This document shows positions 40,895-45,417 of a stretch of DNA of 47,322 bases, one piece after another; positions within the stretch are counted from its first letter, which is position 1, and every line of letters begins with the position of its first letter. This DNA comes from an uncultured Muribaculaceae bacterium (lineage in GTDB: Bacteria > Bacteroidota > Bacteroidia > Bacteroidales > Muribaculaceae). The notes below the pieces were generated by a model. The model was given only the letters and a program-made list of their open reading frames with translations. It was not told the origin of the DNA and searched no databases. Location of the stretch: contig CANRPJ010000023.1 in NCBI GenBank assembly GCA_947632485.1, positions 1-47,322 on the forward strand, read 5' to 3'. A program made the translations under genes and the position numbers.

Positions 40895-40902
40895 TATCTT
40901 TG
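40895..40902 (+). promoter_or_regulatory. Promoter of the membrane winged-helix regulator gene
   Basis: TATCTTTG matches the -7 box, 30 nt before the start codon. No clear -33 box is seen. Confidence 0.55.
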
Positions 40903-40932: not shown

Positions 40933-41757
40933 ATGAGTTCTGTTAAAAATATAGCTCCTAAGAGAGCCAGTTCTCTCCGGTATTGTCTTCTGCTTCCGCT
41001 TGCGTTGCTCTGTGCATCGGTGGTGGCAAGCATCATTTCCTATTCAGATGCCAGGAAGACTGTAGCCGACGATCTGAACAGAGCGATGGTTTCTCTGGCT
41101 AATGAATACAGCGAGGTATGGACCCGTCAGGATACGATAGCTGCCCTACGCACTATGTATGCCGCTACAAGAAAGCCAATCATATACCGGGCTTCAGAAC
41201 TGAATCTACGCAATATAGCGCTCAAAGATGAAGTCTACTTCACTTTGGCGCTTACCGATAGGAAAAATACTCCTCAGGAGATTCAAGGCCATATTATCAA
41301 ATCAGACTCCATTATGCTGGTGCCGGCGAAATCGGCTGAAGGCATTGCAATTCAAGTACAAGGCTTTACTGATTGCTCTATGGCCTCACTCTTCGCGGCA
41401 TCTGATCAGACCTTGCCGGGAGCGCTCTTCGGCCTTGCTATATTGTCGGCTGTCGGGATGCTTATATGGAGAAGTAGAAAGTCGGAGCTGACGCCTGATG
41501 TGGAGATGCCGGCCTCTGAAATTTTCGGGCAGATCAAACTCACTCCAATGCAGAGGAGATTAGCATTGATGCTTTATGATGCGCCGGGAAGGAAAGTGGA
41601 TAAGAATATCCTGTGTGATTCCCTGTGGGGTAACAAGCTTAACGCGGAGGAGTCGCTTTATACGTTGGTGAAGCGCACCAAAGCTGCACTGGTGGATACG
41701 GATATGGAGATAATATGCAACCGTGGCGAGTCTTATGAGCTTCGCGTAAAGGCTTGA
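40933..41757 (+). CDS. Membrane-bound one-component regulator with C-terminal OmpR-type winged helix
   Basis: A 274-residue protein. A basic N-terminus (KNIAPKRASSLR) precedes membrane segment 1 (about 17-37), a ~120-residue extracytoplasmic domain (38-160), membrane segment 2 (161-179) followed by arginines and lysine, then a cytoplasmic winged helix (about 198-274). The last part follows the Trans_reg_C/OmpR pattern: LTPMQRRLALMLYDAPGRKV, NILCDSLWG, SLYTLVKRTKAAL, IICNRGESYEL. ToxR and CadC have this DNA-binding domain at the N-terminus and one membrane segment, so the order is reversed here. It probably senses an envelope signal and acts directly on DNA. The barrel gene follows after 96 nt with phased repeats in between. 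Topology and domain are well supported; signal unknown. Confidence 0.82.
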   Translation: MSSVKNIAPKRASSLRYCLLLPLALLCASVVASIISYSDARKTVADDLNRAMVSLANEYSEVWTRQDTIAALRTMYAATRKPIIYRASELNLRNIALKDEVYFTLALTDRKNTPQEIQGHIIKSDSIMLVPAKSAEGIAIQVQGFTDCSMASLFAASDQTLPGALFGLAILSAVGMLIWRSRKSELTPDVEMPASEIFGQIKLTPMQRRLALMLYDAPGRKVDKNILCDSLWGNKLNAEESLYTLVKRTKAALVDTDMEIICNRGESYELRVKA

Positions 41758-41768
41758 TAAATAGCGAT

Positions 41769-41800
41769 GTCAGGAATTGTCAGATAAAGGTCAGATAAAA
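41769..41800 (+). promoter_or_regulatory. Three phased GTCAG direct repeats, candidate regulator-binding site
   Basis: GTCAG occurs at 41769, 41779 and 41790, spaced 10 and 11 bp, about one helical turn. The last two extend to GTCAGATAAA. They lie between the regulator gene and the barrel gene, just upstream of where a -33 box would be. Head-to-tail repeats on one DNA face are the classic site for OmpR/PhoB-type winged helices. Confidence 0.55.
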
Positions 41801-41827
41801 TTTTAGGTTCTGCCGATGGCTTGAGGC

Positions 41828-41835
41828 TTACTTTG
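41828..41835 (+). promoter_or_regulatory. Candidate -7 box of the receptor-like barrel gene
   Basis: TTACTTTG deviates by one base from TAnnTTTG and lies 18 nt before the ATG at 41854. No -33 box is seen, as expected for an activator-dependent promoter. Confidence 0.45.
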
Positions 41836-41853
41836 CAGCCAAAAACCATCAGC

Positions 41854-43935
41854 ATGAAAAAGACTTTTATCGTAGTTTCACTTTTACTGCCAGCAGTCTC
41901 GTTCGCCCAACAAGATCTTGCGACAGATTCTCTTTCTACCAGGCTTGAAGAGGTAGTAGTTCAAGGTAGCCGGCAGCAGCTCGGAGCCGAGGTTTCCACC
42001 TATGTTCCGACTTCGAAACAGAAAAATTCAGCGCAGACAGCTGTCGATTTGCTTAATCGAATGGCTATACCTCAACTTAAGGTCTCACCCAACTACGTGG
42101 TTACAGATATGGCGGGAAAAAGCGTGGATATCTTTATAGATTTCCTGCCCGCCTTGAAAGAAGACCTTGTGGGCATGAGGCTTCAGGACGTGAAGAAAAT
42201 AGAGTATTACGATTATCCTTCGAACCCTCGCTTTCAAGGCAAGGCTCATGTGGTGAACTTCATAATGCAGAAGTATGAGTACGGAGGCTATGTGAAGACC
42301 TACGGTTGGGAGAATACCTCAAATGCAGGGCAGATAAGCCTCTACAGCAAGGTTCAGTATAAGCGAATCATGATTGACTTAGCTGCCGGAGCCTTCTATC
42401 TCAACCAAAGCCATACAGGAGGCGATGTTTATGAGACGTTCAGGCTTCCGCAACCTGACGGCTCGCTGAGTGTGTTTGAGCGAAATTTCATTCAAGATAG
42501 CGGCAAACTGCGTAAGCGAACTTATTGGCCTACATTTAAGGTGCTCTATTCTACCGATAAAATTACAATTCAGAACATGGTTGGCGCAAGTTTTGACCAT
42601 ACTCCGTTCAACGATGTGATGGGTCATATATCATATTCACCAGAAATTTCTCCTGCAGCTGCTGTATCAGATTGCAAAGCAAACAGGGTCAATACTTTAT
42701 CCTATAAAGGTTATTGGAACTTTATTCTCAACGACCGCAATAGTATTACATTCTCTCCCCATTTTACCTATTCCCATACGAATACGATGAGCCGCTATGC
42801 GGAGGATAATACTGACGAATTCGAAAACTCGGCTATAGATAATTCATATCAGTTAAGTGGCGATCTGGCTTACTCACATTCTTTTGGCGAATGGGGGAGG
42901 TTGAATACAATGGTGAAAGCCTTGATAACCAGGAACCGGACAACCTATTCAGGTACAACTAACACAAGTGATCGGGTCAATAATTATCGTATGGGGCCCG
43001 GGGTGCAATATAGTATATCGAAAGGAAAGATCTACGGCATGTTAGGAATCGGCCTTAACTATAATAGGCTGGAATGTCTTGATTATAAAGAAATTTCCTC
43101 CTCTCCCTGGTTCGACTTTTCATTACAATATTCTCCGTCAGACCGTCATTCAATCCGTGGAGATTATCATTACTTCAAGATAATGCCATCTTCGAGCTAT
43201 CGTTCGGCTGCTGTGATTCAGAGCAATCCGCTTATGAGCTATACCGGCAATCCTGATATCAGGTCGGAAGGAAGCTATAATGCAGGCGCGAGTTATACTT
43301 TCATTCCTGCCAATCGGTTCAGCATCACAGCGTTCGCAGATACCTGGATTCTCGCTAATCGGTTTGTCTACGAATATGTACCCTACGCTACAGGATTATT
43401 GAGAATTATCAGGCAGCCCGGAGGAGGCTATTCGCAATGGAACTACGGATTTGCGGGCACTTTGCGCCTCTTTGACCGAAGTCTTCAGCTTACAGCGCAG
43501 ATGAGTGCGAACTCAGTGCGTAACGGGGAGCCCTATAATTTCAACAGGACAAAACTCGGATATGCCTTTCAGGCAAGTTATTATCTGGATCACTGGACTT
43601 TCTCCGGCCTCTATTATTCTTCACAAGGCTACTCCGACGGCAGTATGGTCGGCACATGGATGATGACCCGACCATACTATAATATCCAGATTGGCTGGGC
43701 TAATTCTACATGGAACTTCCAGCTCCAGGTGGCCAGTTTAGCGCGCTGGCACTGGAGGAGCGACCGCAGCGAGATGCGCAGCAGATACTACGATAAGGCA
43801 GAACAGACCTATTCAATCAATGATCATGCTCTGGCGCGCCTGGCCGTCACCTACACTTTAGGATTCGGAAAGAAAGTGAAGCGCGGTGATGAGGCTACTC
43901 AGCTCTCAGGTATTGAATCGGGCATTCTTAAGTGA
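41854..43935 (+). CDS. TonB-receptor-like outer membrane beta-barrel protein
   Basis: A 693-residue protein with signal peptide MKKTFIVVSLLLPAVSFA/Q. A TonB-box-like LEEVVVQGSR (31-40) leads to a plug-like domain (about 40-145) containing TAVDLLNRM, then VKKIEYYDYPSNPRFQG and VVNFIMQ. From about 150 on it is a large barrel of alternating strands with many Tyr/Trp/Asn residues. It lacks a carboxypeptidase-like N-terminal domain and a SusD partner, and is shorter than SusC proteins, so it fits the outer membrane beta-barrel family 3 rather than a glycan importer. The start at 41854 is preferred over an upstream TTG at 41821, which lies in the promoter. Likely controlled by the regulator encoded upstream. 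Ligand unknown. Confidence 0.85.
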   Translation: MKKTFIVVSLLLPAVSFAQQDLATDSLSTRLEEVVVQGSRQQLGAEVSTYVPTSKQKNSAQTAVDLLNRMAIPQLKVSPNYVVTDMAGKSVDIFIDFLPALKEDLVGMRLQDVKKIEYYDYPSNPRFQGKAHVVNFIMQKYEYGGYVKTYGWENTSNAGQISLYSKVQYKRIMIDLAAGAFYLNQSHTGGDVYETFRLPQPDGSLSVFERNFIQDSGKLRKRTYWPTFKVLYSTDKITIQNMVGASFDHTPFNDVMGHISYSPEISPAAAVSDCKANRVNTLSYKGYWNFILNDRNSITFSPHFTYSHTNTMSRYAEDNTDEFENSAIDNSYQLSGDLAYSHSFGEWGRLNTMVKALITRNRTTYSGTTNTSDRVNNYRMGPGVQYSISKGKIYGMLGIGLNYNRLECLDYKEISSSPWFDFSLQYSPSDRHSIRGDYHYFKIMPSSSYRSAAVIQSNPLMSYTGNPDIRSEGSYNAGASYTFIPANRFSITAFADTWILANRFVYEYVPYATGLLRIIRQPGGGYSQWNYGFAGTLRLFDRSLQLTAQMSANSVRNGEPYNFNRTKLGYAFQASYYLDHWTFSGLYYSSQGYSDGSMVGTWMMTRPYYNIQIGWANSTWNFQLQVASLARWHWRSDRSEMRSRYYDKAEQTYSINDHALARLAVTYTLGFGKKVKRGDEATQLSGIESGILK

Positions 43936-43958
43936 TCACATCAGTGAAATTATCATTC

Positions 43959-43983
43959 TTCCCCGGCAATTATTGTCGGGGAA
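43959..43983 (+). terminator. Hairpin terminator after the barrel gene
   Basis: An 11-bp stem (ttccccggcaa with ttgtcggggaa, one G-U) closes a 3-nt loop, 24 nt after the stop. The T-tract is poor (AGTTACTCTT). The rest of the spacer to 44178 shows no gene. Confidence 0.6.
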
Positions 43984-44178
43984 AGTTACTCTTAGGGATT
44001 GATGAGCGTATCATGCTTAAAATGGCAGAGGATAAAAAAGAGCGCGCAGTGAGTGGAAATTTGAGGAAAATTGCGTAATTTTACGCCACAAAGCTACCTG
44101 CGCGTGCGCTGGTCAAAACTTATGGCGCTGCGATTTGTTAGAATTGTAAAAGAAACACAAATCAAAACATCGAAAGTT

Positions 44179-44391
44179 ATGAGAGGCTCAGACAACAACG
44201 ACATGGGAACCCCTAAGAGCGTAAGGGTATGGTTCGGTATCTTCATGATATTAGTTTATCTTGGTGTGGGCTTATTGTTCATCTTGGATATCTTTAACAT
44301 TGATAATACGGCTATTAGCTGCACTGTAGGAGGTATCTTGATCGCCTATGGAATCTGGCGCGGATATCGTCTGTATCGCGGTATGAACTGA
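44179..44391 (+). CDS. Small two-helix membrane protein
   Basis: A 70-residue protein with a short polar N-terminus (MRGSDNNDMGTPKSVRV), two hydrophobic segments (about 18-37, WFGIFMILVYLGVGLLFILD, and 44-58, ISCTVGGILIAYGIW) and a basic end (RGYRLYRGMN). The frame is open from 44071, but the ATG at 44179 (or at 44203) gives a sensible membrane protein. It ends 27 nt before the PstS-like gene. In many Bacteroidales a PstS-like gene and a TPR gene follow exbB-exbD-tonB; here this small protein takes that place. I recognise no family. Confidence 0.65.
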   Translation: MRGSDNNDMGTPKSVRVWFGIFMILVYLGVGLLFILDIFNIDNTAISCTVGGILIAYGIWRGYRLYRGMN

Positions 44392-44418
44392 TGGCTTTAT
44401 GATTGTTGACTTCTTGAT

Positions 44419-45417
44419 ATGAAGAAATATAACTGGCTGTGTATGCTGCTCGTTGCCCTTATGGTCGGGGCAGCGGGCTGTACCCCTATTAAGAAAGGGG
44501 AGTATGCCAAGGGTTCGGCCACAATTTTCTGCGATGACGGCTTCAAGAACATTCTCGACGAAGAAATCGAGGTGTTTGAATATTCCTATCCGGAAGCTTC
44601 GATTATTCCCTTCTATGTGAGCGAGGCCGAGGCTGTCGATACTCTGCTTGCCGATAAGACGCAGGCTATAATCATCACTCATGAGCTTACGCCTGAGCAG
44701 ATCAAGTATATGAAGGGTAAGCATAAGAGAGTGGTGCGTACCAACTGTATAGCTGTAGATGCCGTAGCGCTGATTACCAATAAGGATAATCCGGTGAAGG
44801 CCTTGAGCATGGACGATATCAGCCAGATTCTTAACGGACAGATCACTCATTGGAGCCAGCTTGCCCGCAATGATTCGGCTGCTATCAAGCTCGTGTTTGA
44901 TAACGCCGGTTCCTCTACGGTCAGCTATATGCGTGAGCGTTTTATGGACGGGAAGAAGATTTCCGACAATCCCAACGCTTACGCCCAGAATACCAACGCT
45001 CAGGTGTTTGATATCGTTAAGAAAGATCCTTCGGCTCTCGGCATCATTAGCGTGAGCTGGCTGGGCGATGAGCTGCAGGCAGCCAAGAAGGTGCCTCTTG
45101 ATAAGAGAATGGAGGATTATGCTAATGAGACCGATACGATCGTGACTAATCTTACGACCGAGGTAAATGTAGTGAAGGTAAGCAATCCTACTGAGGAAAA
45201 TGATCATGACCTGATGTCGTATGCCCCATACCAGCTCTACATCAACTCCGGTCAGTATCCTCTGGTCAGGAAGGTTTATATGATCTCTACCGCGCCCAAT
45301 TCTACGGTGCTTCATAGCTTCTATACCTTCGTCACTGGGTTTGTAGGTCAGAAGATTATATCAAAAACCGGTATCATGCCCTATAGGGTTCACGCCAGGG
45401 TAGTAAACCTTATGTAG
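44419..45417 (+). CDS. PstS-like substrate-binding lipoprotein
   Basis: A 332-residue lipoprotein with lipobox GAAGC (Cys21). The body is a PstS-type periplasmic binding fold: GSATIFCDDGFKNIL near the start, then the hinge and phosphate-loop-like regions IITHEL, DAVALITNKDNPVKALSMDD and ISQILNGQITHWS, and DNAGSSTVSYMRERF in the second lobe. No permease or ATPase genes are adjacent, so a normal phosphate ABC importer is unlikely here. In Bacteroidota such genes often accompany TonB energy genes and a TPR protein. It may be a binding or sensing component in the periplasm. The ligand is not certain. Confidence 0.83.
   Translation: MKKYNWLCMLLVALMVGAAGCTPIKKGEYAKGSATIFCDDGFKNILDEEIEVFEYSYPEASIIPFYVSEAEAVDTLLADKTQAIIITHELTPEQIKYMKGKHKRVVRTNCIAVDAVALITNKDNPVKALSMDDISQILNGQITHWSQLARNDSAAIKLVFDNAGSSTVSYMRERFMDGKKISDNPNAYAQNTNAQVFDIVKKDPSALGIISVSWLGDELQAAKKVPLDKRMEDYANETDTIVTNLTTEVNVVKVSNPTEENDHDLMSYAPYQLYINSGQYPLVRKVYMISTAPNSTVLHSFYTFVTGFVGQKIISKTGIMPYRVHARVVNLM

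Follow-up and report, generated by a model that had tools for sequence, protein, structure and literature searches.

In this study, a phased array of GTCAG repeats was analyzed in 47,322 nucleotides of DNA from an uncultured Muribaculaceae bacterium, the whole of which is referred to here as the window. The array lies in the 96 bp separating the stop codon of a regulator gene (ending at 41757) from the ATG of a barrel gene (41854). Comparison of related loci suggested that the array is the operator of the adjacent regulator, which is predicted to span the membrane and which probably activates the adjoining barrel promoter via winged helices bound head to tail.

The array and its promoter

Three copies of GTCAG on the forward strand begin at 41769, 41779 and 41790, in steps of 10 and 11 bp, as the earlier note on this DNA had reported. 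The last two units read GTCAGATAAA, and the final one ends at 41799. From the end of the array, 28 bp lead to TTACTTTG at 41828-41835, which has one mismatch to TAnnTTTG. The promoter of the Bacteroidota sigma factor is given in PMC7366714 as TAnnTTTG at -7 and TTTG at -33. At the -33 position of the barrel promoter the sequence is TAGGTTC, without TTG, which confirmed the earlier description of a 28-bp gap, a one-mismatch -7 box and an absent -33 element. With its TGTCA direct repeats, 11-bp steps and fixed distance to a core promoter, the array is of the pho-box type; that of the window deviates in having steps of 10 and 11 and a third unit without the leading T.

Across the window, GTCAG is the sole 5-mer with three copies at 10/11-bp steps, as compared with a mean of 0.25 such triple 5-mers in 20 Markov sequences. 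When the 96-bp intergenic stretch was Markov-shuffled 20,000 times, 12 of the shuffles held any such triple, and the pattern GTCAGN{5,6}GTCAGATAAA matched the window twice, with a maximum of 0 over 100 shuffles. In the whole genome (2.6 Mb), GTCAGN{5,6}GTCAG had 10 matches against 7 for the reversed pattern, and single GTCAG pairs are near background. The GTCAG triple occurs once in the whole genome, at the regulator-barrel locus, and a regulon of many arrays was ruled out on this ground. The genes that contain or adjoin the eight remaining pair matches seem unrelated, and two of these matches are on contig C22. On this contig, two TTTTGTCAGCnnnTTGTCAGCGAAT-like words stand about 20 kb apart (C22:71-87 and C22:19987-20003; L086, L087), one upstream of a gene that by eye resembles an integrase and the other near the contig start, and it is possible that they are the ends of an integrated element.

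Table 1. Predicted features of the regulator-barrel locus, in window coordinates
Feature	Position	Strand	Basis
TATCTTTG, perfect TAnnTTTG, predicted -7 box of the regulator's own promoter	40895..40902	+	motif match
Regulator gene, 274 aa; two hydrophobic segments with a predicted periplasmic part between, C-terminal winged helix	40933..41757	+	ORF, hydropathy, PF00486, homologues
OmpR/PhoB-type winged helix (PF00486), codons 200-268, predicted DNA-binding part	41530..41736	+	Pfam
Phased array of three TGTCAG-type units, predicted operator	41769..41799	+	pattern, conservation, family-genome scan
TTACTTTG, predicted -7 box of the barrel promoter, 33 bp past the last GTCAG	41828..41835	+	TAnnTTTG consensus (PMC7366714)
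Barrel gene (693 aa) for a predicted TonB-receptor-like protein of the outer membrane; at or before its start, homology to loci carrying other barrels stops	41854..43935	+	homologues, pair comparison

The regulator

Hydropathy placed the two hydrophobic segments of the regulator at about residues 12-40 and 159-181, and the predicted membrane topology follows from this profile. The charges at the segment ends further suggested that both ends of the protein lie inside, with about 120 residues outside. The match of PF00486 to the window regulator as a single sequence (E 6.2e-5, 23.4 bits) was below the Pfam cut-off of 26.2; the same domain was matched by 47 of 47 family members (E up to 0.01; best 1.6e-9), and a profile of these 47 members, compared with solved structures, found two PhoB-family chains over the winged helix. 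No sequence relative of the periplasmic part was found. Pfam and NCBIfam gave no match to a receiver domain, and the protein is thus not classed as a response regulator. The regulator had 854 homologues, and a genome-wide search with it gave a single match. In seven distant homologues, residues 237-253, which form the recognition-helix stretch, were 53-65% identical and the periplasmic part 21-24%; conservation of the recognition-helix stretch runs in step with the preserved TGTCAG.

A phased GTCAG array was absent from the region 5' of the regulator gene in the window and in 34 of 34 loci examined, which ruled out autoregulation via a second array. A small ORF starting MSEVELLLVNSS or similar was observed upstream of the regulator, at about 780-300 bp, in three loci (L023, L041, L033) and downstream in L052, and it is perhaps part of a co-travelling unit. 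A search of open-access papers, with subscription journals largely outside its scope, found no literature on this regulator family or its operator.

Conservation of the array among relatives

In the genus, 15 of 111 genomes carry a relative of the regulator, and in the family 42 of 297 do (26 close, 16 distant); relatives were further found at 41 named loci. They belong mostly to Muribaculaceae or to unplaced Bacteroidales MAGs, and distant ones occur in Bacteroides, Phocaeicola, Parabacteroides and Prevotella; some records are titled Bacillota and were taken as mislabelled or mixed bins. One locus of the module comes from an isolate, Phocaeicola coprophilus (L057).

Alignment of the intergenic region across relatives had been set beforehand as a test, and the repeats were found to be conserved. 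The comparison covered 46 non-redundant downstream stretches, with 31 groups of identical loci each counted once, and excluded L076 and L077, whose match ends before residue 260, and L018, which has no match. A phased chain with at least two exact GTCAG lies just 3' of the regulator in 44 of the 46 loci. In the near group (n = 37), the chain has three exact GTCAG in 27 loci, two in 8, one in 1 and none in 1; in the distant group (n = 9), it has four in 1, three in 6 and two in 2, and a chain of at least two units is present in all nine loci, in which identity of the regulator is only 25-32%. In 43 loci a control stretch (130-230 bp downstream) is free of GTCAG, and in 3 it holds one.

The distance from GTCAG to T(A/T)nnTTTG is exactly 33 bp in 36 of 46 loci and 32 bp in 4, and it was not found in 6. 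Of the six, the last unit is in the right place but decayed in L006 and L010, the box is altered in L070 and L075, L058 is different, and L072 has a regulator with neither array nor barrel behind it. Moreover, an extra 11-bp unit in L010, L011, L012 and L013 is accompanied by an equal shift of the -7 box, and the columns of the last GTCAG are invariant across 31 near promoters. Regulator gene, array, -7 box and barrel gene stand in a fixed order and at near-fixed spacing both in Muribaculaceae and in the distant homologues of Bacteroides, Phocaeicola, Parabacteroides and Prevotella.

A further feature of these promoters is an inverted repeat of 6-11 bp in 19 of 46 loci (for example, TTTGCATCGAA / TTCGATGCAAA in L078), which the window does not have. 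In its arms, TTTGC of the -7 box pairs with the bases just before the barrel ATG; shuffles gave an expectation of 1.4 against the 19 seen, and the arms covary between loci.

The array was also sought without reference to any gene. In the 297 family genomes, the strict triple TGTCAG-TGTCAG-GTCAG had 34 matches in 32 genomes, and the reversed control had 0. A same-strand regulator match precedes 28 of the 34 triples at a distance of 13-20 bp. The remaining six comprise three in 10-bp simple repeats (L127, L128), two without a regulator (L134, L165), and one (L138) that has a barrel behind it and, ahead of it, what look like the final codons of a regulator gene, which no long frame precedes. By genome, the strict triple lies beside the regulator in 28 of 42 regulator genomes, and the ten of the other 14 that were inspected had a decayed unit, a missing leading T, a cut contig or, at L072, no array. 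Among 61 close and order-level relatives, triples were found at 5 places in 4 genomes, 2 beside a regulator (the window and G008) and 3 intragenic. In the wider order, 3 of 295 genomes had one, namely that of the window and two others in which the triple is intragenic and within TGTCA-rich repeats, respectively, and in neither case next to a regulator. Genome G213 has the array and a barrel behind an apparent regulator remnant on contig C74 (L138), together with a whole regulator gene without array or barrel on contig C6 (L072 / L043), and a split or moved module is possible.

A chance origin of the array was ruled out by the shuffles, by the conservation in 44 of 46 loci and by the family-genome scan. 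The tie of the array to the regulator across loci (44/46, 36/46 and 28/34) makes the array very likely the operator of this regulator.

The barrel gene and its exchange

Protein queries for the barrel were started at 41851, one codon before the ATG at 41854. Pfam gave no match to the window barrel at E up to 1. The barrel had 791 homologues, and PF14905 was present in 3 of the 120 listed and in 3 of 7 related proteins tested (3 of 6 barrels of other classes). In the other classes, one barrel had a TonB-receptor barrel match and another a carboxypeptidase-regulatory-like domain.

A long ORF starts at most 140 bp from the regulator in 42 of 44 loci. Single-linkage clustering divided these ORFs into classes A (19), B (10), C (6) and D (3), the window barrel (1), a Prevotella barrel (1) and two that do not look like barrels (L038 and L049). 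In L038, about 2.0 kb comprising most of the barrel is deleted relative to L040, and the start runs into the next gene, encoding a secreted protein that is found 3' of the barrel in L040; L049 likewise has a non-barrel-like ORF behind the array.

The identities of barrel and regulator do not agree with each other. L056 and L023 share only 29.5% identity in the regulator as against 80.7% over 679 residues in the barrel; conversely, the regulators of L022 and L023 are 73.5% identical and the barrels 29% (over 127 residues only), and the corresponding values for L056 and L055 are 59.8% and 21.3%. At the DNA level, L020 and L025 are 88% identical across regulator, array and promoter to about 8 bp beyond the ATG, after which there is no match. 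In different-class pairs (n = 285), the median end point of homology was +7 bp relative to the ATG (range -65 to +116; 215 within -20..+30), and homology never resumed inside the barrel, whereas in same-class pairs (n = 178) it extended to a median of +2078; these are the 463 of 496 possible pairs with a spanning match, and the pairs are not independent. For the window, the end of homology fell between about -50 and +7 in the pairs listed. A quick tree of the 39 of 44 regulators that were long enough gave 10 barrel-class changes against a minimum of 6, which is a rough count with 8 of 36 inner branches starred. These comparisons showed that regulator and promoter are kept while the predicted barrel past the start codon falls into six or more sequence classes.

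Identity in the sensor part does not follow the barrel class. In successive bins of winged-helix identity, mean periplasmic identity in same- and different-class pairs was 63.3/62.9, 67.5/66.0, 75.3/72.5 and 77.9/82.3, and no such tracking was seen.

A first search of the window genome listed 20 candidate barrels, three of which pass 1e-60 (the window barrel itself, one on C5 at 42% and one on C2 at 34% identity). Barrels of this kind are numerous in one genome and could be donors. Inverted repeats of at least 16 nt in 41700-44400 were limited to two local ones inside the barrel gene, with none flanking it.

Barrels without the regulator

Window-type barrels elsewhere were represented by 29 loci, 41-68% identical, with no regulator within the stretch fetched. 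A tandem array was found in 0 of the 28 loci that had upstream sequence, with the start codon, and hence the upstream stretch, unsure for several longer barrels. For class A, the best 30 of 76 listed matches (75 genomes) were taken. Where the regulator was present, the array was found in 9 of 9 loci, 8 having two exact units 10-11 bp apart and L172 a decayed middle unit; without the regulator, an exact GTCAG pair at 10/11 bp was found in 0 of 21, of which L176 was flagged by a loose rule only, on a one-mismatch word. The tandem array as a general property of these barrels was ruled out (0/28 window-type and 0/21 class-A loci without regulator), although a single GTCAG at 33 bp may be such a property; the comparison showed that the predicted operator goes with the regulator gene rather than with the barrel.

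The class-A loci without the regulator have a different organization. Two GTCAG stand exactly 63 bp apart (six helical turns) in 19 of the 21, the nearer one 33 bp before the -7 box, and TTG is present at -33 in 19 of 19 promoters of class-A barrels behind the other regulator. An upstream ORF with an end that by eye resembles a LuxR-like helix-turn-helix was found in 20 of 21 loci, and L173 has an intervening ORF. In the three proteins of this second type that were measured, the length was 327 aa, the start is lipobox-like and residues near 137-163 form a strong hydrophobic segment; Pfam gave no helix-turn-helix match in these three, and the labels LuxR-like and TPR were assigned by eye. Loci with this second pair type, all upstream of class-A barrels, are L171, L173, L174, L176, L177, L179-L184 and L186-L195. 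Like the window regulator, the TPR-type protein is encoded upstream of class-A barrels, has a predicted membrane span and has GTCAG 33 bp before the -7 box; it differs in being an unrelated protein and in having two GTCAG 63 bp apart plus TTG at -33 in place of a tandem array. Thus, the same barrels occur behind two unrelated, apparently membrane-type regulators, and GTCAG lies 33 bp ahead of the -7 box in the promoters of both types. This likeness might stem from replacement of the regulator at an older promoter, from convergence or from a shared GTCAGA-binding factor.

The view that the GTCAG word belongs exclusively to the window-type regulator was not borne out, since other regulator-barrel pairs hold two GTCAG 63 bp apart. 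The occurrence of GTCAG at 33 bp in 19 of 21 second-type loci means that the word at that distance is no proof of this regulator.

Discussion

The winged helix of ToxR-like proteins is N-terminal. ToxR, CadC and TcpP are described in PMC5430869 as having a periplasmic sensor, a single transmembrane helix and a cytoplasmic OmpR-type domain, with CadC1-107 as the DNA-binding part of CadC. The window regulator is similarly predicted to combine an outside part, a membrane span and an inner OmpR-type winged helix in one protein, and it may work like the ToxR type. However, it is not itself ToxR-like, as hydropathy predicts two hydrophobic segments in place of a single helix and the winged helix is C-terminal.

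According to PMC10294691 and PMC3264566, PhoB sites consist of TGTCA(T/C) direct repeats that recur every 11 bp and are strictly spaced relative to the core promoter; the head-to-tail TGTCA half-sites, the step and the strict spacing are shared with the arrays in the present study. Unlike PhoB, the window regulator has no receiver domain or sensor kinase partner and has one predicted genomic target, adjoining its own gene; unlike the pho box, the arrays have three or more units, and the first step is often 10 bp.

From these parallels, the following mechanism is proposed. The regulator would be made from its own promoter, with the perfect -7 box at 40895, and would stay in the membrane, where a signal would be received through its outer part. 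The C-terminal domain would read TGTCAG half-sites much as PhoB reads TGTCA, and the winged helices would, by analogy with PhoB, stack on the head-to-tail TGTCAG units. From just upstream of the -33 position, the bound units would then recruit polymerase carrying the Bacteroidota sigma factor, at a promoter that has no good -33 box. The earlier note had proposed that the array replaces the -33 contact. This agrees with the presence of TTG at -33 in only 7 of 36 array promoters, as against 19 of 19 in the second type, but not with the position of the array, which ends upstream of -33. For a protein that is held in the membrane and needs to catch its DNA site, a target beside its own gene would be a good fit, which is offered as an idea only; this search problem is treated in PMC7888679.

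Among the alternatives, both kinds of locus might be served by a third, unlinked factor that binds GTCAGA 33 bp ahead of the -7 box, with the neighbouring membrane protein only modulating its action. The two regulator types share a barrel class, and 19 of 21 second-type promoters have GTCAG at the same 33 bp, both of which speak for such a factor. Nevertheless, tandem arrays with 10/11-bp steps are confined to the winged-helix regulator (28 of 34 places, plus one beside its apparent last codons), and the two promoter types are built differently, the second having two sites 63 bp apart with TTG in 19 of 19 and the first three units with TTG mostly absent. In addition, the 63-bp spacing with a perfect box was found at 24 places in 41 relatives against 4 for the control, and only 3 of these are such barrels, the others looking unrelated. 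A third factor is considered unlikely.

Some OmpR-type regulators repress. The sign of regulation is not fixed by anything in the sequence, and the regulator might bind the array and repress the barrel until a signal arrives. Against this, the whole of the array is located upstream of the core promoter, and its distance from the -7 box hardly varies, an arrangement that suits polymerase contact better than occlusion; moreover, only 7 of the 36 promoters have TTG at -33. Repression appears somewhat less likely again than a third factor.

It is very improbable that the array is a pho box of a cytoplasmic PhoB, with the barrel in a phosphate regulon. The half-site and the 11-bp period do match E. 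coli PhoB sites, and a PBP_like_2 / PstS-type match lies downstream of the barrel, at 44419. However, there is no TGTCA separating the barrel from the PstS-like gene, and the genome has five further TGTCAN6TGTCA sites (reversed pattern 2), where no neighbouring ORF listed looked phosphate-like by eye; across genomes, moreover, the arrays follow the regulator gene. Lastly, the repeats might be a by-product of drift or barrel exchange, bound by nothing, and in favour of this the 5-bp word is short and genomic GTCAG pairs are near background (10 vs 7). This reading is scarcely credible, however, because the array is conserved in distant homologues at a constant -7 distance and only 3 of 46 control stretches contain the word.

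Operator function under the predicted membrane-spanning regulator, with activation of the barrel, is thus the preferred reading. The periplasmic part would sense something independent of the resident barrel, because it does not track barrel class, and the module would serve as a fixed expression site for exchangeable receptors. An arrangement with a similar outcome is described in PMC4747536, where shufflon-type inversions at SusC/SusD loci of Bacteroides fragilis bring different outer-membrane receptors under one promoter. The two cases share the placing of differing receptors under a single promoter (PMC4747536), whereas in the shufflon an invertase rearranges copies within one genome and in the window module the exchange is seen between genomes, with its junction at the start codon. 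It is tentatively proposed, at somewhat short of even confidence, that this is a fixed receptor site of Bacteroidales in which a membrane regulator of reversed ToxR order, a pho-box-like operator and a promoter stay in place while unrelated TonB-receptor-like barrels plug in at the start codon. The same barrels would also occupy a second site, with an unrelated membrane-spanning regulator and GTCAG at the same 33 bp, and the sensor would ignore the receptor, so that a lineage could swap it without rewiring its control.

In conclusion, a predicted membrane-held winged-helix protein was paired with one exact DNA site by comparative sequence analysis alone, and the pairing was found outside the Proteobacteria with the usual domain order reversed. 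Transcription from the membrane thereby becomes testable in a system of a single regulator, a single operator and a single target. The barrel receptor is a likely gate for nutrients, phages or bacteriocins, and receptor exchange at the start codon suggests how gut Bacteroidales may change a surface receptor yet keep its control.
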